Source of the DNA: a virus
Direction: 5' to 3' (one strand)
Length of the DNA: 23,376 nucleotides
IMG/VR virus record: IMGVR_UViG_3300009414_000079
Coordinates: 1 to 23,376 of that record
Under the pieces are notes generated by a model. It was not told the DNA's origin and ran no database searches. It saw only the letters and a list, made by a program, of their open reading frames with translations. Both the position numbers and the translations under genes were made by a program. This document shows positions 2,980 to 22,816 of this stretch, piece after piece (position 1 is the first letter of the stretch; every line of letters begins with the position of its first letter).

Positions 2980-4029
2980 TTATATAAAATCTCCTGTTTT
3001 ATCTATGAAGTCATCAACCGTGCCAGCGCCTAATGGTGTGTTATAATGTTTCTTCCAATATTTTGCATAACCTTCTAAATCGCCATGCTCTGGCAGAGGC
3101 GTTGGCGCTCTGAAATAAATTATTCTTGCAATCGCTGTGGCGTATGAAAGATTGGTAATCAACTGATCGTCTGGGTGTTCACTGGTTAAAAGGCGGTGGA
3201 TATCAACGTCAAGTTTATCCCTATATTCTAAGAAGTTTGCATGGCAATCAGCGCGAGTGGCTGGCTCAATCTGGTAAATCCCACGGGCTGGGCCGTTGTT
3301 GTGTTGGCGCAAATATACCAACCCGCTCTCCATGATAGCCGTGGCAAGTAACAGGTCTTCTGCTGCTGGAGAATATAAGCCTATAGATTTGAGAGTTGGC
3401 TTGATTACATTTTCGCGAAGTTGGTCTGGCTCAATCATAACGGTTCGTGTTGCATTAGTTTGCTTGTAACCACTCCCAGGTTGTACATATGGAGCTCCAG
3501 TTCTGTCCCACTTTTCGGACGGTTTGAAAACCACACCTCGAAGGGCGCTCCTGTCTGTGGGTGGTAACTCACACTGACTACAAAAGGGCCGACTTTCTGT
3601 GATACTGTTAACCGCCGATTTGGAATTTTTGGGAGCGTTGGTAGGGGCAACGGGTACTTCTCCTTTCTTCATTTGGTCAAAGTGAGATTTCGTTAAAAAA
3701 AAGTAATGAGTCATGCAGTTTGACGTAGCTGCATACAGTACCCCACCCTTTGAAACTGGTGAGTAAAAATAGTGTACTTGTTCCGCTTTAACGTCTGTGG
3801 GCGGTTCAGCCTTGTTAAATGTAGAAAGGAAAATATCCAGACCATCGCCAGATGGGATTGTGTGTTCTTGCAGAACAGGATTTCGAGACAGAACAAGAGT
3901 ACGTACAAATCTGATATCTCTGTCTGCAATCGGGCAAGGCGTAGGCTTCAGGGAAGTTTTAATCGGTGGGTCTGTTGATGAAACGCAACCCACTAGAAAT
4001 AGTGGTGCAATCCAGATGGGAAATTTCAT
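2980..4029 (-). CDS. Lipoprotein fused to a phage lysozyme-like (transglycosylase-like) domain
   Basis: Residues 1-15 are a lipoprotein signal ending in the lipobox LVGC (Cys15). Residues 16-195 are an unrecognised region with cysteines at 32, 105, 150 and 153. Residues 198-349 match a common phage lysozyme-like family that is usually a separate protein of about 150 residues. It begins MIEPDQLRENVIKP and has ATAIMESG with likely catalytic Glu234, then NNGPARGIYQIEPAT. The ATG at 4029 overlaps the stop of the previous gene (ATGA), supporting the long form. An internal ATG at 3438 would give the domain alone but has no ribosome-binding site. The family cleaves peptidoglycan during lysis or entry. 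Lipid anchoring would tether it to a membrane, which is inference. Confidence 0.7.
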   Translation of the reverse strand: MKFPIWIAPLFLVGCVSSTDPPIKTSLKPTPCPIADRDIRFVRTLVLSRNPVLQEHTIPSGDGLDIFLSTFNKAEPPTDVKAEQVHYFYSPVSKGGVLYAATSNCMTHYFFLTKSHFDQMKKGEVPVAPTNAPKNSKSAVNSITESRPFCSQCELPPTDRSALRGVVFKPSEKWDRTGAPYVQPGSGYKQTNATRTVMIEPDQLRENVIKPTLKSIGLYSPAAEDLLLATAIMESGLVYLRQHNNGPARGIYQIEPATRADCHANFLEYRDKLDVDIHRLLTSEHPDDQLITNLSYATAIARIIYFRAPTPLPEHGDLEGYAKYWKKHYNTPLGAGTVDDFIDKTGDFI

Positions 4030-4190
4030 ATATCACGTTTAAACAGTTTACGAACCGTCTTGGTTTCCCAGATTCTGATTGCAAACCAGATCAGTGTAAG
4101 GAAGGCCGTGGCTGTGGGCAGAAGATCCATTATTGTGCCAGCTACAGCAGCAACGCCCAAGACATCGATTGTAGCTTTTGTTTGCTCCAT
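4026..4190 (-). CDS. 54-residue single-TM protein, holin-like
   Basis: The frame runs from ATG 4190 to TGA 4026. It begins MEQTKATIDVLGVAAVAG, has a hydrophobic segment around FLTLIWFAIRIW (residues 30-41), and a basic tail KTVRKLFKRDI. Small phage membrane proteins with this 'VAAVAG ... IWFAIRIWET' layout sit beside lysozymes in marine podoviruses and are usually called holins or lysis accessory proteins. The stop overlaps the lysozyme start in ATGA, and only three bases separate its start from the preceding stop, so it is embedded in the lysis cassette. With a second holin candidate at 2532-2936, the two may be holin and antiholin or holin and pinholin. That split is a guess. Confidence 0.65.
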   Translation of the reverse strand: MEQTKATIDVLGVAAVAGTIMDLLPTATAFLTLIWFAIRIWETKTVRKLFKRDI

Positions 4191-4193
4191 TTT

Positions 4194-4328
4194 TCAACTT
4201 CTAGCCTCTCTAGGGTGCGTACCATTGTGGAGTTTATATTGTTGCTTCGCCGCTTTAGCCAGCGCCAGAACGCGCTCTTCCAGCTTTGCTATTTTGATGG
4301 CGTGTTTCTCTAAATTGTTTGGATTCAT
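4194..4328 (-). CDS. 44-residue helical protein of the lysis cassette
   Basis: The ATG at 4328 overlaps the previous stop (ATGA) and the TGA ends at 4194, three bases before the next ATG. The product begins MNPNNLEKHAIKIAKLEERV and continues with an alanine- and lysine-rich helix, ending NGTHPREARS. The heptad spacing of Ile and Leu suggests a short coiled coil. There is no signal peptide or membrane segment. I recognise no family. Tight coupling on both sides is the main evidence that it is real. It may partner the coiled-coil protein encoded just upstream. Confidence 0.5.
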   Translation of the reverse strand: MNPNNLEKHAIKIAKLEERVLALAKAAKQQYKLHNGTHPREARS

Positions 4329-4579
4329 TTTGAATGTCCGTTAAACCGATCTCTGAGCTTATTTGTAAAATCCCAGAGGGCGCTGATCTGACTCTGATAA
4401 TGGCTTTCCATTTGATCGATTTGAGCGCGGAGCTTCACCGTTTCTACGTAGGTATCGCGCTTTTCGATAACGTCTAAATCTTTCTGGATTTCCTTAACTT
4501 GAGCGGAGAGTTTTACGGCCACGACAATCAGGCCGATTATGAAAACAATTTGATGCCAGTGTGAAGTGATTAGCTCCAT
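4325..4579 (-). CDS. Single-TM coiled-coil protein (possible i-spanin)
   Basis: The 84-residue product has a membrane segment at about residues 9-25 (HQIVFIIGLIVVAVKL). It continues as a charged coiled coil (26-75) with regular Leu, Ile and Val spacing, and ends polar. An N-in membrane anchor with a periplasmic coiled coil is the plan of inner-membrane spanins, which span the periplasm with an outer-membrane lipoprotein partner. The lipoprotein encoded three genes later could be that partner, but no direct evidence links them. The ATG at 4579 lies six bases after the stop of the cysteine-rich gene; the end overlaps the next gene by four bases. Confidence 0.6.
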   Translation of the reverse strand: MELITSHWHQIVFIIGLIVVAVKLSAQVKEIQKDLDVIEKRDTYVETVKLRAQIDQMESHYQSQISALWDFTNKLRDRFNGHSK

Positions 4580-4585
4580 GCATTA

Positions 4586-4687
4586 TTAGTCCTCTTGGCG
4601 GCAGTTGCATTCATCACATGAGCAAGTGGGGCATTTTACAGAGCAATGACAGGCACAGTTATCAGTACAATGTATGCACTTTTCCAC
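4586..4687 (-). CDS. 33-residue cysteine-rich microprotein, metallothionein-like
   Basis: A GTG at 4687 shares its first base with the stop codon of the preceding gene (TAGTG). The frame runs to TAA at 4586, six bases before the next ATG. Ten of 33 residues are cysteine: 4, 7, 11, 13, 15, 19, 22, 24, 27 and 29, in C-x-C and C-x-x-C spacing, with two histidines (6 and 14). The product begins MEKCIHCTDN and ends CNCRQED. Such density without a signal peptide points to a cytoplasmic metal-binding knot, as in metallothioneins or double zinc knuckles. A GGGA about ten bases upstream could serve the GTG start. The function in a phage late operon is unknown. Confidence 0.6.
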   Translation of the reverse strand: MEKCIHCTDNCACHCSVKCPTCSCDECNCRQED

Positions 4688-4989
4688 TAGAGTTTCCCGC
4701 GCTCAACTGCGATTAGTTTTTCCTGGGAATCCAGCCAAGCGCGGCCATCGTCTGTCAGCACACTGTCGCGGATACGGCGTGGGGTTATTGCAGTTTCCAG
4801 CACCATTATTTTATCTAAGGCGCTTGGAACTGGCTCAACGTATTTAACCACTGCGCCGTCTACCCATCTATCCTTATCAACGACAGTGTCGTCAGAAACA
4901 GATACCCATTGCAGATCATTGTGGACAGGAAAGGTTTTATCGTCGGGAACAGTTTGACAAATACGAGTTCCTTGAATAAGTGCTTTCAT
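4687..4989 (-). CDS. Tail-fibre-associated small protein
   Basis: The ATG at 4989 forms TAATG with the stop of the tail fibre gene, and GGGAG lies eight bases upstream, so I prefer it over an upstream start at 5004. The 100-residue product begins MKALIQGTRICQTV, has a Trp/Asp-rich middle (LQWVSV, DRWVDGAVVKYVEP) and a basic helical C terminus with ITPRRIRDS and DDGRAWLDS. Short proteins of this type follow fibre genes in many marine phages, and some act as fibre assembly chaperones or fibre-tip parts. I see no motif that proves such a role; the position is the main argument. Confidence 0.55.
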   Translation of the reverse strand: MKALIQGTRICQTVPDDKTFPVHNDLQWVSVSDDTVVDKDRWVDGAVVKYVEPVPSALDKIMVLETAITPRRIRDSVLTDDGRAWLDSQEKLIAVERGKL

Positions 4990-6311
4990 TATGCATACTC
5001 CCAAACAACAACAATTCCAGGTGCGCCAGCACCCCCAATATAACTTTGTATACCACTACCGCCACCGCCTCCGTAGTTACCGCCGACCTCCCCGTTTGCG
5101 GATTCGTTGTAGGCTATACCACGGCCACCGCCTCCCATATGTGAACTGCCGCCAGCCATACCACCATGATAGGTACTAGCATCAACTTTACCGCCACCAC
5201 CTTGGCCTGTGGAATTAATAGTGCCTCCACTGCCAGTACCCCCACTGCCACCTTCACCTGTACCACTAGTAGCGTAGTTGTAATCACCGCCTGCACCACC
5301 TGTAGCAGAAAGCAGAGAACCGAACGAAGTTGTCCCTCCAGTGGAAGCAGTTGCCTGTCCAGAACCAGCACCGCCAGCACCAATAGTCACTGTCTCAGAA
5401 GAGAGAGACGCTGCGGCGAGAAGCTCTTTTGAGTAACCGCCACCACCTCCTGCTGCACCGATATAATTATTAGCAATTCCACCCGCGCCTCCGCCACCGC
5501 CGCCAACTAGTTCTACAACAATCGTTCCTATCCCAGCGGGTTTAGTCCAAGTCCCAGACGCTGTGAATGTTTGAACGGATGTTAAACCACCGCCAGAAGA
5601 AGCAGCCTCTGTTTCTACCGACATCACTACAACCGTGTTAGCCGCAGTTGCGTAACACATCAATCTATCGCCCGTGGCCGTCGTCAGGTTGGCAGCGCCA
5701 GGAAGTTCAATACCCGAACCATGCGTAATGGTTAAAGCGCCATCAAATTGCAACATAAAAAAGTTGCCAGCTTCTACCGTCATCGCGGCGAAACTTGTCG
5801 TACCTGTCACATCGAAGTAATTGCCGTCTGTGTCGATCACCAGTGGAGAGGCGCTAGCTATGTCACCGCCCTTGGTTATATTCAGAGTGTTAGCGGCAAT
5901 TTGACTTAACATCTGGAAGTTGTTTGCCGTAGCCTCGTATGCAACCAGAACTATTTGCCCAGCTTCAATATCGCCTGGTGCAAGAGCAACATCATGTCTT
6001 TTGACCACTGCCCTAGCGCCAATACTGTCTATATTCAAAGTTGCTGCGCCCGTATTTGCCCCACCGGCTTCAAAAGCTATCATCATACCCTGTGCATATG
6101 CAGAAAGTGATAGCCCGCTTGTGAGAGCAATTGTGTCCGTCCCAGAACTAATTTTAGCACCGCCAAGAATATCACGCCACTTGGCAACATCCGCCATAGT
6201 GTCACGCGCAGAATTATTTATGGTGGATGGGGCTTGTCCTTCAGCCCAGTTTATTGAGCCAACTGTAGCGTTACTCGCCGCCGTTGCAGACCAGTCATAA
6301 ATGCTTGCCAT
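4989..6311 (-). CDS. Tail fibre with glycine-rich C-terminal domain
   Basis: A 440-residue structural protein likely to bind the host surface. The N terminus (MASIYDWSATAASNATVGSI, then GQAPSTINNSARDTMA) is the virion-proximal part of many podovirus fibres. The middle (about 50-245) is a beta-rich Ala/Thr/Gly region. From about 246 comes VQTFTASGTWTKPAGI, which leads into polyglycine stretches (GGGGGAGG, AAGGGGGYS, GGGGGSG) and ends PGIVVVWEYA. Glycine-rich adhesin modules of this sort can form polyglycine-II sandwiches, as in phage S16 gp38. The fibre ends the structural block and is followed by its small partner at a TAATG junction. The variable glycine loops are where host-range differences would be expected. 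Confidence 0.8.
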   Translation of the reverse strand: MASIYDWSATAASNATVGSINWAEGQAPSTINNSARDTMADVAKWRDILGGAKISSGTDTIALTSGLSLSAYAQGMMIAFEAGGANTGAATLNIDSIGARAVVKRHDVALAPGDIEAGQIVLVAYEATANNFQMLSQIAANTLNITKGGDIASASPLVIDTDGNYFDVTGTTSFAAMTVEAGNFFMLQFDGALTITHGSGIELPGAANLTTATGDRLMCYATAANTVVVMSVETEAASSGGGLTSVQTFTASGTWTKPAGIGTIVVELVGGGGGGAGGIANNYIGAAGGGGGYSKELLAAASLSSETVTIGAGGAGSGQATASTGGTTSFGSLLSATGGAGGDYNYATSGTGEGGSGGTGSGGTINSTGQGGGGKVDASTYHGGMAGGSSHMGGGGRGIAYNESANGEVGGNYGGGGGSGIQSYIGGAGAPGIVVVWEYA

Positions 6312-14924: not shown

Positions 14925-16139
14925 TTACGTTGTTGAAAGATCAACAACCGCTGCGTGAGCCTTGGGCGCTTTCACGATCAAAGTCCACTCAGAGATTATT
15001 GCAAACCGCTCTGCGTCACCAACAGGTGCAACATCACTGACTTTGAAAAGCCTTCCAGGGAGATGGCCGATAGAATAGTAATTCTTATCGAGCATAAGTA
15101 TCTCCGTGTTTGTCGCCTGGCGGTCAATAACCACGTTCAAAGTCCCAAAATCCGTGAGATACATTGAAACGCTACCGATTATGATCGCATCAGTAGGCGC
15201 ACTTGCAGTCATGTGAAGTTGGTTAGTTACAACGCTGCCAGAAGACAGATCGCTGAAAGCAACCTTGTTGGCAGGGTTAACCACTAACATGTCAGGTTGC
15301 CCACCGTCGTCGTATGCCGCTTTCATTGCGGCATCAACTTTAGCCAGAGTCAAAGCCGCATTTGTACCGGCCATATCAGACACATCAGCGCCTGTTCCGG
15401 CTGGGGTAGTAGATGCAGAAATCAATGACATGTTTGTAATCCATGACAAAAATTTCCCAGCTTTTCGAGGGTCAGAAGAAGACCGCGCTTCGTTTTTGAA
15501 GAGAGACTTATCTATGTCTCTACGCTGTTCACATTATCTTCAAGCGAGAACGCTACCTCTCGCCCCGTCCTTTCGGACCGCTGCACATTGCTTTCACCTG
15601 TGCAGTTGAGACTATATCTTCACCCTACTCTTTTGTAGGGGCTGGGCGCTTCGAGCCGCTTGGCTCTACTCCTTTCGGATAGTCGTTGAACGTTCCTCTT
15701 TCGAGGCTTCGCTGCTGATTATCTGTTGCCAGACTTTCCAGCAATTCACCCAGTTATTGCCCACTTATTACTAAGCGGCTGCCCTAAACTCATTAAGGCC
15801 TTTCAAAATCTTGACGTAAGCCGTCTCTTTCTGCCTTCCGGCTTTATCGACAACGTCTAAAGTATTTGATACTTGCGCTGCCTGTGCAGAGATCTGGTGA
15901 TAATTTCCAACTCTCGTTGTGGCAGTCGGATTAACATAAGAATAATCCGCTCCTTCATTGACATAATTTGTGTCAACAGCAGCGGTAAGTTCTTGGACTT
16001 GCCATTCGTGGAAAACGCCAGACGTTACCTCTTTCTTCGCATTGGAAAAAACAGGGGTTTCCGCCGGATCAATTTTCGTGATGATGCTACTTAGATCCTC
16101 ACGTTCACCGATAGCGGAGCTTGTGGTATGTGTAGCCAT
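14925..16139 (-). CDS. Major capsid protein, SU10-type, split by a group I intron
   Basis: Two exons: 16139-15796 (114 codons plus two bases) and 15531-14925. Joined, they give 951 bases and 316 residues with no internal stop. Exon 1 starts MATHTTSSAIGEREDLSSII and has DPAETPVFSNA, HEWQVQEL, TRVGNYHQIS and VDKAGRQKETAY, the order of the SU10-type (DUF5309) shell protein. The join reads KILKGL then EQRRDIDKSLF. Exon 2 continues RKAGKFLSWITN, LVVNPANKVAFSDL, YLTDFGTLNVVIDRQ and GDAERFAIISEWTL. AGGAG lies seven bases before the start, which overlaps the scaffold stop (TAATG). Unspliced, translation would stop at TAG 15771 after 122 residues. The protein forms the icosahedral shell. Splicing is inferred. 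Confidence 0.85.
15532..15795 (-). ncRNA. Group I self-splicing intron (IA2-like), no homing endonuclease
   Basis: The 264-base intron starts TAATGAG after an exon ending GGCCT and ends AAGATAATG. P1 is GCCTTAA with TTAGGGC; the U-G pair falls on the last exon base, as required. P2 is CCGCTT/AAGTGG. The P segment AATTGCTGG and Q segment AATCAGCAGC give P4; P5 is TCTG/CAGA; P6 is CCTC/GAGG. P7 pairs GACTA (15684-15680) with TAGTC (15614-15610) inside ACGACTATCC and AAGATATAGTC. P7.1 is TATCC/GGAGTA, P7.2 GAGCC/GGCTC, P8 CCCTAC/GTAGGG, P9 CTGCACA/TGTGCAG, and P9.1 and P9.2 follow. The P7.1/P7.2 insert and the ending resemble the T4 td intron. The last base is G. No reading frame for an endonuclease fits. 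Confidence 0.92.
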
Positions 16140-17146
16140 TAGCTACTCCTTTGTAAAAGATAGTCAACAGCATCGTCCATGCTGCCAGACTTGTTTAAAC
16201 GTTCAAAAGCCTTTTGCGTTTGCTTTTGCTGAGAGTTTTTACGTCCCTCTTTAGGAGTTGAGCTTCTGGTAAGTTTGGGTGCAGCTTTTGTTTTCTTTTT
16301 CACGTCCGGCTTTTTGTCCATTAACTCATCGTACAACATAGCTTTCCGTAAAGTAGAAACGGCCCGACTATCGTAGGTTGTATTTATTTCCTCTTCAGAA
16401 AAACCTACTCGTTGCGCGTACTTTATCACCGCTGACTTTTCTTTCGCGGCAAGTTCCGTATTTTTCCATTCTGGAATACGTTCCGTTAATTTGGCAGACT
16501 CCTGAACAAGATGCTGTTGCAACTGTTCATTAGCCACACGCGCTTTCTCTGTGTGTACCTGTTGCAGCCTTTCCTGGTTTTCTCTGTAGACTTCCTTTTG
16601 TCTAACATATTCCAGTGGGTCTTCTTCATAGAGATCATCCCAATTCGGCTGCGCTGCATTACCAATCTGCTGAAGATTTCCTTCAAGAGCTTGTAGTGCT
16701 TGAGCATATTGCTCACGCTGCTGGGTAAGCGCCGTCTTTTCTGCTTCTGTTACTTTACGCATTTCAGCAGCATCAGATAGACGTTTTCTAGCTGTTTGTT
16801 CCAGTTGGTAGTTTTTGGTAAGTTCGTCTTGGGTGACATACTTCTCTTCACCATCGACTACGACACGGTATGTATATTCCGTATCGTCTTCCGTTTCCTC
16901 TTCCTCTGAAACTTCTTCTTCCTCAACTTCCTCAGACTCGTCTTCAGATTGGGCTTCAACACCGTCTTCCGACTCTTCCGTTTCCGTTTCGGTTGCTTCA
17001 ACTTCTTCCGTAGTAGTCTCAGCTTCAGGCTCTTGGTTCGCTTTGTTATCCTCTTCAGGAGCTTCCGCTTGCAAGAGTGCATTTACCGCTTCTTGTTGCG
17101 ATAAATGAGAGCCACCAGGGATTTCAATCTTGCTGGTATCGGCCAT
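16139..17146 (-). CDS. Capsid scaffolding protein
   Basis: The 335-residue protein is very acidic at the N terminus: residues 28-90 are mostly Glu, Asp, Thr and Ser. A short strand-rich piece (YTYRVVVDGEEKYVTQDELT) is followed by long coiled-coil helices rich in Gln, Glu and Lys (about 115-230). The C terminus is basic (DKKPDVKKKTKAAPKLTRSS ...) and ends DDAVDYLLQRSS. An acidic, helical protein with a basic shell-binding C terminus directly upstream of the capsid gene is the usual scaffold arrangement. It would direct shell assembly and then leave. SD GAGG precedes ATG 17146; the stop overlaps the capsid start (TAATG). Confidence 0.8.
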   Translation of the reverse strand: MADTSKIEIPGGSHLSQQEAVNALLQAEAPEEDNKANQEPEAETTTEEVEATETETEESEDGVEAQSEDESEEVEEEEVSEEEETEDDTEYTYRVVVDGEEKYVTQDELTKNYQLEQTARKRLSDAAEMRKVTEAEKTALTQQREQYAQALQALEGNLQQIGNAAQPNWDDLYEEDPLEYVRQKEVYRENQERLQQVHTEKARVANEQLQQHLVQESAKLTERIPEWKNTELAAKEKSAVIKYAQRVGFSEEEINTTYDSRAVSTLRKAMLYDELMDKKPDVKKKTKAAPKLTRSSTPKEGRKNSQQKQTQKAFERLNKSGSMDDAVDYLLQRSS

Positions 17147-18864: not shown

Positions 18865-18941
18865 TACACTATCATCCAGATAATAAGAGCAAAAAACAAA
18901 ACCGCACTACCACCATAAAGAAGCTCTCTCCAATCAATCAT
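18864..18941 (-). CDS. 25-residue single-TM microprotein
   Basis: The ATG at 18941 shares a base with the portal stop (TAATG) and its TAA at 18864 shares a base with the next gene's ATG (TAATG again). The product begins MIDWRELLYGG, followed by a hydrophobic helix SAVLFFALIIWMIV to the end. The charged N terminus would stay in the cytoplasm. Perfect double overlap filling the exact gap between two genes makes chance unlikely. It has no signal for export and no known family. It could be a membrane-localised assembly factor or a lysis-timing peptide; neither can be shown here. Confidence 0.6.
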   Translation of the reverse strand: MIDWRELLYGGSAVLFFALIIWMIV

Positions 18942-20938
18942 TATACAATCCTTGGGATATTGGCATTGCCAGCCGGATCGCCCGCCGCCATTCTCGCCGC
19001 TTCAAGCTCCGTTTCTATCCCAAGTTCCTGTTGCTTTAGCTGCATCTCCATTGCCAGTTTTTCTCTTTCAAGAACCATCTTCTGGTCAATTTCGTATTTC
19101 TTCATTTCCATTTCTTGTTGTATTTTCTGCATCTCAACTTGCATTTCAGGATCAGCGCCCTGCTGTGGCTGTGGATCACCTTGCGGCATACTGAAAAAGC
19201 TGTCCACATCCTTGAAACCAGACATTTCAGCCATACGGCGAAGGGTGGATACATACTGGGCAAGGGTTACAACGCCGTTGTTTGCGCCAAGCGTTTGTAA
19301 AATCTGTTCCTGTTTGGAGGCAATCTGCGCCAGCATTCCCATCTTCTGGTCTTCATTTCCTGTTCCAAGACCAACCGAAACTTCCAGATCAAACTCCGTG
19401 TCCCATTCTCTTGGGTCAATCGCCACAAACTTGTTTCTCAGTCTAATAATACGCGGCTTGTTCTGGTACATTGTCACCAGACGCAGAACACAGTGCATCA
19501 AATGGCGCACACCCGTTTCGGCAAAAATCCGTGCCATCATTTCCAGCTTGGCCTGTGAAGCCGTCATCTGCGCGGAAATAGCTACAGCACTGGTTGACTG
19601 CAAAGCATCAGCATCCAGACCCATGCTGGCCTTGGACATGCCGGTTCTGTTTTCTTTCAACTCATCGAGATACTGTAAAGTACGCAAAGCATCATTGCCA
19701 ACTTGCGGTATCGCCAGAGGCTGCACCATACCTGGCTGTCTGACACGAATAATTCCACCAGGTCTGGAGTTCATAACGTCATCGAGATTTGTCTGTCCCT
19801 CGACAGCAACCACTCTGGCATTATTTGTGAGATACAGATTATCCAGAAGCTGTCTCAGAACCGTCGAGCGTATTAGCTGTAGATCAAGAACCAGATCAGC
19901 AAAACTTCTGCCAACAAGACGGTGAGGCATTAAAATTGGAGACAGCACTGAAAACGGAATGTAATCGTATGGCTCGTTTTCCAGAATTTCAGACGTGTCT
20001 CCAATGGTCAAAATTCTTCTTAATTCGGAAACATCATCACCGTCGTAATCCACCCGAATGTAACACTCGTTAACCATGACTTCGCGGCGTGTGGGATCAC
20101 CGCTGTCATCCGCCGAACCAGACTCAATATCCCTGAATCTATTCTGCACTTCGCTGGAATTATCCAGATCGTCTGTACCGGCGTGTTCTTCTACAAGATC
20201 ACGGTCATAACCCATTGCCACCAGATCACTGACAGTCATTGCGGAACGATGGCAGACAAAATCAGCATCATCTATAGACTTGGCACGATGACTGACCAAA
20301 AATTCTTCCGGCGGTATGTTTTCGATAACAACGCGCCCCTGTTCATCTGACCGCTTGACTTTTACATCGTAGACAATCGGGGCTGGAATAATCTGTCCGT
20401 CTGGGCCTTGTACCGGCTCTCCAGCCGGACGCGCATCCTGTTCGACAAGTTCCACTTCCTCAGACGACAGCATCAACGTCAATTCGTCTTCAGTCAGACC
20501 TTCATAGTTTTCCTCTGTTGTTTCAATACTTGAATTCCAGCCATGCTTCAGGATTCCCATCCTTAAAAGAAGAGAATCTTTGAACCAATTATGGGCAAGT
20601 TGGAACCAGTTGTTATCACTGTTCAGAATAAAATTTACATAATCCTGTGCCTGTTCAGCTTTTGGAACGTCTTCCGCTGTGCGGGGGAGGAACCGCACAA
20701 CGTCCTTGGTCGAGGTGAAGACGCGCATCAAAGAAGGCATAGCCATCTCGATGCAGTCGCTGACAACTGTATCTACAACCTGAGATCTACCTGTTTGCTC
20801 GTTACCAAACGGCTCGCCAAGATAACGTTCCATAGCAGTGATACGATCACCGCTAAACTCAGAGTCGTAGTAGTTTAAACTTTGTTCTATTTCAGACTGA
20901 ACAATTGCCTTTAGTTCAGTGTCATCCATTCTTGCCAT
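18941..20938 (-). CDS. Portal protein, SU10-type
   Basis: The 665-residue protein forms the dodecameric DNA channel of the head. It starts MARMDDTELKAIVQSEIEQS; a second ATG four codons on (20929) is an alternative start. Conserved pieces include RYLGEPFGNEQTGRSQVVD, a stem-like region, NIPPEEFLVSHRAKSIDDAD, LVGRSFADLVLDLQLIRSTV with LLDNLYLTNNARV, and KENRTGMSKASMGLDADALQ before a helical C-terminal barrel (about 585-650) rich in Gln, Glu and Met. This order and length match the large portal of SU10 and HMO-2011-type podoviruses. The gene begins inside the end of the zinc-ribbon gene and ends in TAATG. Confidence 0.85.
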   Translation of the reverse strand: MARMDDTELKAIVQSEIEQSLNYYDSEFSGDRITAMERYLGEPFGNEQTGRSQVVDTVVSDCIEMAMPSLMRVFTSTKDVVRFLPRTAEDVPKAEQAQDYVNFILNSDNNWFQLAHNWFKDSLLLRMGILKHGWNSSIETTEENYEGLTEDELTLMLSSEEVELVEQDARPAGEPVQGPDGQIIPAPIVYDVKVKRSDEQGRVVIENIPPEEFLVSHRAKSIDDADFVCHRSAMTVSDLVAMGYDRDLVEEHAGTDDLDNSSEVQNRFRDIESGSADDSGDPTRREVMVNECYIRVDYDGDDVSELRRILTIGDTSEILENEPYDYIPFSVLSPILMPHRLVGRSFADLVLDLQLIRSTVLRQLLDNLYLTNNARVVAVEGQTNLDDVMNSRPGGIIRVRQPGMVQPLAIPQVGNDALRTLQYLDELKENRTGMSKASMGLDADALQSTSAVAISAQMTASQAKLEMMARIFAETGVRHLMHCVLRLVTMYQNKPRIIRLRNKFVAIDPREWDTEFDLEVSVGLGTGNEDQKMGMLAQIASKQEQILQTLGANNGVVTLAQYVSTLRRMAEMSGFKDVDSFFSMPQGDPQPQQGADPEMQVEMQKIQQEMEMKKYEIDQKMVLEREKLAMEMQLKQQELGIETELEAARMAAGDPAGNANIPRIV

Positions 20939-21187: not shown

Positions 21188-21425
21188 GACCAAAATTTCC
21201 CTCAGTCAATTTAATTCCATGAATGTACTCGACATAATCTGCTGGAGACATACCAGCGCGGTACGCACAGATCGCAGCGCACAAAAACATAGTCGGAACA
21301 AGCTCCGCATATTCCACAGCGTCGGAATCAACCATTTTCCCACAAACGGACATAATTGCCCCTGTGGGTTGGCTTTCATCATCTTCATCGTTATAGAGAA
21401 CATGAAAAGCGTTTAAACTATCCAA
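21180..21425 (-). CDS. 81-residue conserved protein after the terminase gene
   Basis: The start is a TTG at 21425, with GGAG seven bases upstream and 13 bases of overlap with the terminase end. The product opens MDSLNAFHVLYNDEDDESQP, then AIMSVCGKMVDSDAVEYAEL, a hydrophobic helix MFLCAAICAYRAGMSPADYV and an acidic end. The pattern resembles small proteins near the terminases of marine phages, with no assigned function. The hydrophobic helix could be a buried or membrane segment. The strong ribosome-binding site is the reason to accept the TTG. Confidence 0.55.
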   Translation of the reverse strand: MDSLNAFHVLYNDEDDESQPTGAIMSVCGKMVDSDAVEYAELVPTMFLCAAICAYRAGMSPADYVEYIHGIKLTEGNFGHA

Positions 21426-22816
21426 GCAGAATCTCCGTATTCCATTTCCTTGTTATGCGTAAAGTATGCCCTTCCGTGATGGGCTGCTACAGCCTGACCG
21501 GCAAAGGTTAAACAAAAAGCGTCTGCAAGATCAGGTGAAGCGTTAGCGCCGAGTCTTTTCTTCATCTCGTCCTTGCTTTCAACTTTTAGTTTGCCTGTTG
21601 ACGTATAAGAAAAGCGTGGGACGCTAAGTTCTTTTATAAGCTGGGAATCGTCCGGCATACGGACATCAAGGCCGGTAAACCATTCCCTCGCCTTAAACCA
21701 TAATTCGTCACGCAAGCGTACATATTTAGCGCGTAAAGAAGGACTTTCAGACACAGCACAGGGAATGACCGGCAAATCAAGCTCAATGCCACGGTCAACC
21801 ACCGCGCTACCCATACCAATACTGTCAACAACTATTTCCTGTGGCCGGTCAAGAAACCTGCAATCCTCATACTGTGTGAGAAGGATTCCTGTCGTCTCCA
21901 TCAGATCCTTGCCAGACCAGTGAAGCACAGGTTCAAGCAAATGATTGCCACGCCGCTTTGCCAAGGCCGTTTTGTCATTCCCGAACCTGGCTACGTCTAA
22001 CCCCCAAACAATAGGCGCTGTTTCAGTGAGATCCACATCTCTTTTAACCGCATCCTCAATGAGGTGCAGAGGGATGAGAACATCATCATCCTCTTTCGCA
22101 AACTCGCCCAAAACCCTGATAGAAAAGATGTTACTTTCTTCGCCATACTTTTCCGACATGTCCCGAATGAAGTCAGGCGAGACAAGAGTGCTGTCATGAC
22201 AACTCACTTTCATCGTGTCCCATCGATGAGACATGCTGTGGAACGCATCATAAAAATATCCAGAATTTCTGGTGGGATTGCCGCACATCACAACCTTCGC
22301 ACCAGTTGTGGATAGCGCCCCTTCAGCAACCTGAAAAATAATATCCGGCACACCAGATGCTTCATCAACAAGAAACAACATATTCGGGCTGTGAAACCCC
22401 TGAAGAGCTTCCGGCCTGTCACGCGCTGCCGTTCTTGCGTATGCCGCACTATCTGGTGCGCCAGTTAATTCTATTTTGTCGCTTTTTATCTCCAGTAGTT
22501 GCAGAAACCCATCAGGCATTTTCCTTGCCCACTTAGACACTTCACCCCACAACACATCAGACAGTTGACTGCCTGTATTCGCTGTGCATGCAATCTTCGC
22601 GGGATAACGTGTCAGAAGAAACCACAGTATCAGCCAGCTTAAATAGGCAGACTTGCCAACACCATGACCGCTGCGAATTGAAATTTTATCATTTTTTACA
22701 ACAGCACGTAGCGCCTTTGCTTGCCAAGGCTGGGGGGTTGCACCCAATATTTCCTCGACGAAAAGGACAGGATCATTGTGCAGTTTTATCAGCGTATCGG
22801 TAAGAACTTTGCTCAT
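21413..22816 (-). CDS. terL: Terminase large subunit (packaging ATPase and nuclease)
   Basis: The 467-residue motor protein pumps DNA into the prohead and cuts it. The ATPase domain (about 1-250) has the Walker A SGHGVGKS (49-56), the Walker B MLFLVDEA (146-153) with Asp151 and Glu152, and the coupling motif MCGNPTR (177-183). The RNase H-like nuclease domain has Asp274 (WGLDVARFGNDKT), Asp331 (IVVDSIGMGSAVVD) and Asp429 (ASPDLADAF), so all catalytic acids are present. GAGG lies six bases upstream of the ATG at 22816. The small subunit gene lies 190 bases upstream, with an unusual spacer. Family features match headful-type enzymes, but the packaging strategy is not proven. Confidence 0.95.
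   Translation of the reverse strand: MSKVLTDTLIKLHNDPVLFVEEILGATPQPWQAKALRAVVKNDKISIRSGHGVGKSAYLSWLILWFLLTRYPAKIACTANTGSQLSDVLWGEVSKWARKMPDGFLQLLEIKSDKIELTGAPDSAAYARTAARDRPEALQGFHSPNMLFLVDEASGVPDIIFQVAEGALSTTGAKVVMCGNPTRNSGYFYDAFHSMSHRWDTMKVSCHDSTLVSPDFIRDMSEKYGEESNIFSIRVLGEFAKEDDDVLIPLHLIEDAVKRDVDLTETAPIVWGLDVARFGNDKTALAKRRGNHLLEPVLHWSGKDLMETTGILLTQYEDCRFLDRPQEIVVDSIGMGSAVVDRGIELDLPVIPCAVSESPSLRAKYVRLRDELWFKAREWFTGLDVRMPDDSQLIKELSVPRFSYTSTGKLKVESKDEMKKRLGANASPDLADAFCLTFAGQAVAAHHGRAYFTHNKEMEYGDSAWIV

Follow-up and report, generated by a model that had tools for sequence, protein, structure and literature searches.

The capsid gene and its insert

The window, by which we mean the whole stretch of 23,376 nucleotides of viral DNA analysed here (IMG/VR record IMGVR_UViG_3300009414_000079, positions 1 to 23,376), carries an SU10-type major capsid gene in two pieces on its minus strand, together with the following neighbours:

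14925..15531, minus strand: exon 2 of the major capsid gene, from the last base of codon 115 to the stop (TAA)
15532..15795, minus strand: group I intron of 264 nt, first base T, last base G, type IA2
15796..16139, minus strand: exon 1 of the major capsid gene, covering codons 1-114 plus two bases of codon 115
16139..17146, minus strand: head scaffolding protein gene, directly upstream of the capsid gene (phrog_3927, 1.6e-50)
18941..20938, minus strand: SU10-type portal protein gene (PF23899, 2.3e-218)
21413..22816, minus strand: large terminase gene (phrog_2, 1.3e-45)

The end of the late gene cluster is marked by a holin of the GTA_holin_3TM family at 2532-2936 (PF11351, 3.5e-12). Besides, just outside the integrase gene (907-2031) there is at 2290-2341 a likely attachment site, the 3' half of a sequence resembling tRNA-Met with anticodon CAT; ARAGORN found no complete tRNA.

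An open frame of 122 codons begins at 16139 and is closed by the stops at 15773-15765; a second open stretch runs down to 14925. The first-pass annotation had taken the two as minus-strand pieces of one SU10-type capsid protein, and the exon fragments indeed match Pfam PF17236 (SU10_MCP) consecutively, at profile positions 4-109 and then 115-291. Joining 15796 to 15531, as it had also proposed, restores the frame and gives a protein of 316 aa ending in TAA, which reads KILKG-L-EQRRDIDKSL across the join. The suggested comparison of the spliced translation with SU10/DUF5309 capsid proteins returned one continuous match of residues 6-313 to profile positions 4-291 of 292 (7.2e-67), and the spliced protein also matches phrog_1328 (9e-69) and the solved capsid chains 9ny2 and 7z45.

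The insert that splits the major capsid gene, at 15795-15532 of the minus strand, is a group I intron and is complete. The covariance model Intron_gpI (Rfam RF00028), which had been named as a check, matches 15817-15581 of the minus strand far above its cut-off (82.4 bits against 50, E 7.5e-20), spans model positions 1-253, i.e., the full model length, and is the sole match in an Rfam scan of the whole window. The alignment stops at 15581, and the last 49 nt (P9.1, P9.2 and the omega-G) were placed by the fold, the relatives and the reading frame. An alignment-free fold prediction recovered P1, P2, P3, P4, P5, P6, P7.1, P7.2, P8, P9, P9.1 and P9.2, with an energy 5.2 standard deviations below that of 200 shuffles (z -5.16). 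The elements on which the argument below depends are as follows, with a slash marking the splice site:

15781..15799, minus strand: P1, pairing 15799-15793 (GCCU/UAA) with the internal guide 15787-15781 (UUAGGGC), from the fold
15765..15773, minus strand: three in-frame stops in a row (TAG TAA TAA), in the P2 hairpin and ahead of the catalytic core
15680..15684, minus strand: P7 5' strand, GACTA, from the RF00028 alignment and covariation
15610..15614, minus strand: P7 3' strand, TAGTC, from the RF00028 alignment and covariation

The U-G pair at the 5' splice site is U15796-G15784, and the terminal base of the intron is G15532. Two hairpins (P7.1/P7.2) occupy alignment columns 140-169 between the P7 5' strand and the P3 3' strand, and two further hairpins past P9 correspond to P9.1/P9.2 in both the fold and the consensus fold; the IA2 subgroup is assigned by this architecture, without a subgroup-specific model. 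The intron contains no ORF, its longest open frame being 54 aa. Considering the covariance model, the fold and the frame together, the limits 15532-15795, the splice sites and the P7 strands read by the first-pass annotation proved exact to the base, and the group I architecture with its P1 U-G pair and terminal G is borne out by the model score, the fold and the covariation of exon and guide described below, as is the P7 core by its covariation in relatives. Over 5,603 nt the sequence recurs with 100% identity in a second IMG/VR record, L083, which may share the same sampling.

Empty sites and other introns in the capsid family

A search of IMG/VR with the spliced protein retained 80 loci that are 69-86% identical to it, in all of which the capsid gene is uninterrupted. 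Exon 1 aligns 1:1 with uninterrupted relatives, and in DNA alignments the window's exons 1 and 2 abut at the same base in many of them; a coding role of the segment in uninterrupted relatives, which had been named in advance as a finding that would speak against the intron, is contradicted by its absence there. This first search disfavoured interrupted genes, whose split matches score low. The bias shrank when exon 2 and codons 119-236, a stretch free of introns, were used as added queries, and a pattern of many sites emerged.

The best phage match in GenBank, Phage C72C1 (OQ984150.1, complete, 34,944 bp), has a split capsid gene too, with an intron (RF00028, 81.8 bits) 22 nt further upstream than the window site. 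Its region 3001-4202 (our locus L002) is annotated in GenBank as two 'major head protein' genes and small opposite-strand ORFs in the intron region; from its sequence, the region is a single gene interrupted by a group I intron. The gaps searched in further interrupted capsid genes likewise contain RF00028 matches. Splice sites were located by a P1 method and by a dynamic-programming alignment that needs only a U at the exon end and a G at the intron end. This gave 13 frame-preserving sites (codon.phase in the window protein): 23.2, 48.2, 55.0, 59.1, 77.0, 77.2, 80.1, 102.0, 108.1, 115.2 (the window), 119.0, 236.2 and 243.0, of which 108.1 (C72C1) comes from the P1 method and frame alone and 55.0 and 77.2 from the alignment method alone. 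A position of 125.2 returned for C72C1 by the dynamic-programming finder was misplaced by a protein indel, and the P1 rule and frame move it to 108.1.

Introns are present in 22 of 80 distinct capsid genes (12 with one, seven with two and three with three), a figure that describes this sample and is not a prevalence. They are 208-285 nt long and lack ORFs. In L320 and L334, two introns flank an internal exon of 41 nt, and in a distant relative, L199, four RF00028 matches alternate with the five exons of the capsid gene (reverse complement of 3049-5011), two of the four introns lying inside the first 51 codons. The codons at insertion sites are more conserved than random ones (0.89 vs 0.82, p 0.002), in agreement with reports of introns and inteins at conserved sites (PMC2814812). 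A stretch of 199 nt downstream of the capsid gene in L121 (2871-3069), absent from the otherwise 95-97% identical L082, was considered as an intron and rejected: it reads as coding and has no Rfam match.

When 22 records, 18 of them intron-bearing, were searched whole, all 27 matches lay by coordinates inside the capsid gene and none elsewhere; the set includes near-duplicates, and the independent phages are fewer. This restriction to the capsid gene holds in records as long as 39.6 kb and also in the complete genome of C72C1, and the four long intronless relatives searched whole gave no intron match. A scan of a genome collection yielded one relative only, L349 (PBOZ01000018.1), whose capsid intron is at 236.2. 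Its contig was binned to a Red Sea MAG of the Rickettsiales, which is the only hint of a host for this group of phages.

Structural constraint and lateral movement

Among 23 introns from nine sites, 98.1% of 1,238 pair cells hold standard pairs, compared with 34-45% (at most 44.5%) in control structures with partners slid by one to three columns. Changes on both sides were observed in 38 of 55 pairs, and in at most 16 pairs of the slid structures. P3, P4, P6 and P7 are 100% paired in the 23 introns and P8 98.6%, with compensatory changes in each. The P7 pairs are kept in 23/23, two of them with a compensatory change, including one that is U-A in 12 introns and C-G in 11. The pairing extends to the exons. 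At site 115.2 the window combines the exon CCU with the guide GGG and six relatives combine CAU with GUG; at site 243.0 an exon base g, a, c or t is met by a guide C, T, G or A or by a G-U pair. Exon and guide pair better with their own site than when swapped. Since the guide covaries with the exon at 115.2 and 243.0, selection in nature acts on the pairing of codon and intron, and this is the strongest sign of splicing at hand, RNA aside.

An in-frame stop lies at most 44 nt from the splice site, ahead of the core, in 34/34 distinct capsid introns, which are related and not independent cases; in shuffles, a stop within 60 nt was found in 23.8 on average and in 30 at maximum. We infer that these early stops keep ribosomes off the ribozyme.

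Identity between introns at the same site, measured over the longer copy, is 71-98%, with one close pair at 100%, whereas third positions of identical codons in the genes that carry them are mostly 37-60% identical. At site 80.1 the introns of L090 and L134 are 98% identical and the third positions 49%, and at site 236.2 those of L128 and L349 are 96% and 55%. Structural constraint alone should not hold intron loops at 98%. On a capsid tree, which has many weak branches, the seven 115.2 carriers need seven changes and the five 236.2 carriers five. Besides, L121 has two introns and L082 none, although their capsid proteins are the same, and L134, with three introns, is 98-99% identical around the gene to L088, with none. 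In both pairs mismatches crowd at the intron sites (16/90 near vs 26/858 far in one, 15/60 vs 38/885 in the other), and two other strain pairs showed no such excess. Circular shifts gave p 0.003-0.005 at 15 nt and a weaker 0.02-0.05 at 25-40 nt, and the site-wise difference between near and far is mostly positive. The mismatches are clustered as if donor exon had been carried along with the intron, and in T4 co-converted exon flanks are the hallmark of homing by an endonuclease (PMC2988022). On the other hand, a search of the window and 21 other records, most of them fragments, gave no HNH, HNH_3, GIY-YIG or LAGLIDADG_1 domain; ordinary recombination between phages would be compatible with this, as would a nuclease that another phage supplies in trans.

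Because identity at the same site far exceeds that of third positions, presence is discordant with the capsid tree and mismatches cluster in two pairs, the capsid introns move laterally and have repeatedly entered the same gene. A spliced intron whose sharing at a site reflects old vertical inheritance with many losses would be compatible with the intron tree, in which introns group by site, and losses are indistinguishable from gains on the capsid tree alone. We consider this improbable in view of introns 96-98% identical in genes with third positions about 50% identical, and of the L134/L088 mismatches, whose concentration at the sites is what one would expect if introns were gained together with donor exon. 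Within the intron tree, the site 59.1 intron falls among the 80.1 introns, and since the targets are also alike (AACU/A) this suggests a switch of site. Overall, we put forward tentatively, and with slightly less than even confidence, that tiny endonuclease-free introns confined to this capsid family, at at least 13 sites and up to three per gene (four in the distant relative), spread laterally by exon-converting recombination, with an agent encoded neither by the intron nor, as far as seen, by the phage.

Splicing, known systems and wider setting

A degenerate, non-splicing intron in the dead capsid gene of a defective phage or provirus would be in keeping with the integrase at 907-2031 beside the tRNA-Met-like 3' end, by which the record may be a provirus. 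Nevertheless, both exons are intact and fit the capsid profile from end to end, P1, P3, P4, P7 and P8 are all paired in the window copy, and the guide matches the codon variant of this very phage, which makes decay very unlikely. Still less credible is another route past the insert, be it an intein, ribosomal hopping of the kind known from T4 gene 60, or two proteins with an internal restart of exon 2. The two-protein route finds some support in the GenBank listing of the C72C1 homologue as two genes and in an internal TTG at 15449 that could start exon 2, but residues 116-142, conserved in the family, precede that start. The bypass of T4 gene 60 is short, and 264 nt with a complete ribozyme core are unlike it; stops in all frames of the insert speak against both intein and bypass. 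Only from group I introns would one expect many sites that each combine a U end and a G end with a guide that fits. An assembly error is rejected by the identical second record and the empty sites at the exact base, and a group II intron by the lack of any such Rfam match in the window.

The insert is very probably a working self-splicing group I intron (IA2) of the major capsid gene with mobile relatives. What the sequences show directly is the structure, its covariation, the exact empty sites, the lateral spread and, in two strain pairs, the exon co-transfer. We propose a scheme in which the guide pairs with the end of exon 1 (P1, U-G) and the P3-P7-P8 core binds guanosine. Two transesterifications would then remove the 264 nt, the terminal G acting as omega-G, and exon ligation would join codon 115 (CU/U) to give the 316-residue SU10-type capsid protein. 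Ribosomes entering an unspliced intron would meet the in-frame stops of P2 and stay off the core. The intron population would move between related phages by DNA recombination with short tracts of flanking exon, probably with help from phage recombination or from an endonuclease provided in trans, with occasional jumps to new sites of similar sequence, probably via reverse splicing.

Group I introns in capsid genes are already known from LittleE, Tuc2009 and crAss-like phages. The first-pass annotation, which called such an intron unusual and claimed no first, was right in its caution, as it is not a first (PMC3706429, PMC7886860), and the preference of phage group I introns for genes of nucleotide and DNA metabolism, at which it hinted, is described in the literature, where the reason 'has remained mysterious' (PMC12350094). 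The intron in the major capsid gene of the Cluster J mycobacteriophage LittleE, most likely of group I, was proven to splice by RT-PCR and protein N-terminal sequencing; like the window intron it has a U exon end, a G intron end and an intronless homologue in sister phages, but it measures about 820 bp, encodes a LAGLIDADG-type endonuclease and occupies one site in a different type of phage (PMC3706429), compared with 264 nt, no ORF and an SU10-type capsid here. The group I intron in the capsid gene of lactococcal phage Tuc2009 is a single case (cited in PMC3706429). Capsid-gene group I introns also occur in crAss-like phages of the Delta and Zeta groups, and since one such gene is in five fragments, several introns per capsid gene were already known. 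Those phages, however, are large, with introns and inteins in many genes that were identified through endonuclease domains (PMC7886860), whereas the phages of the window's family are small, with introns only in the capsid gene and without ORFs.

The IA2 introns of T4 td and Staphylococcus phage Twort share P7.1/P7.2, the P1 U-G pair and the terminal G with the window intron, but lie in other host genes. Introns of the td type often carry endonuclease ORFs. One Twort gene is reported to hold three introns (Landthaler and Shub 1999, cited in PMC11878797). The Bastillevirinae and Jug phages also have many group I introns per phage group, those of Jug being similar in size (about 206 nt on average), but in polymerase, terminase, nrd and other genes and alongside many genomic endonucleases (PMC11878797, PMC12363816). 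In the open-access literature we found no SU10-like capsid introns, no C72C1 and no small-phage capsid family described as the sole, repeated target of short non-coding mobile introns; earlier reports may exist.

A scan of IMG/VR with the core motif ACGACTATCC..GGAGTA returned at least 120 stretches. Counts of the flanking frames are rough, because the frames were chosen with a simple rule and some families may overlap: among the matches listed, phrog_1328, the family of the window's capsid protein, is the commonest named non-endonuclease family in 92 upstream frames (8 members), and in 96 downstream frames DNA polymerases come first (8), with major head families phrog_267 (5), phrog_283 (4) and phrog_1357 (4). 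The phrog_1357, 267 and 283 head families (L149-L268) flank the same intron type, and capsid genes of other phage groups may host introns. Two copies of the core motif within 10 kb were seen in the contigs L158, L161, L167, L175, L204 and L227, which may carry further multi-intron genes.

Annotation breaks capsid genes of this family into fragments, as in C72C1, and a search for marker genes can overlook them. With strain pairs like L134/L088 it becomes testable how endonuclease-free introns spread, and at what cost. In the IMG/VR pattern sample, among the matches listed, major head proteins rank with DNA polymerase among the genes that most often host an intron. In these small environmental phages the repeated intron target is a late structural gene, each virion needing hundreds of copies of its product.
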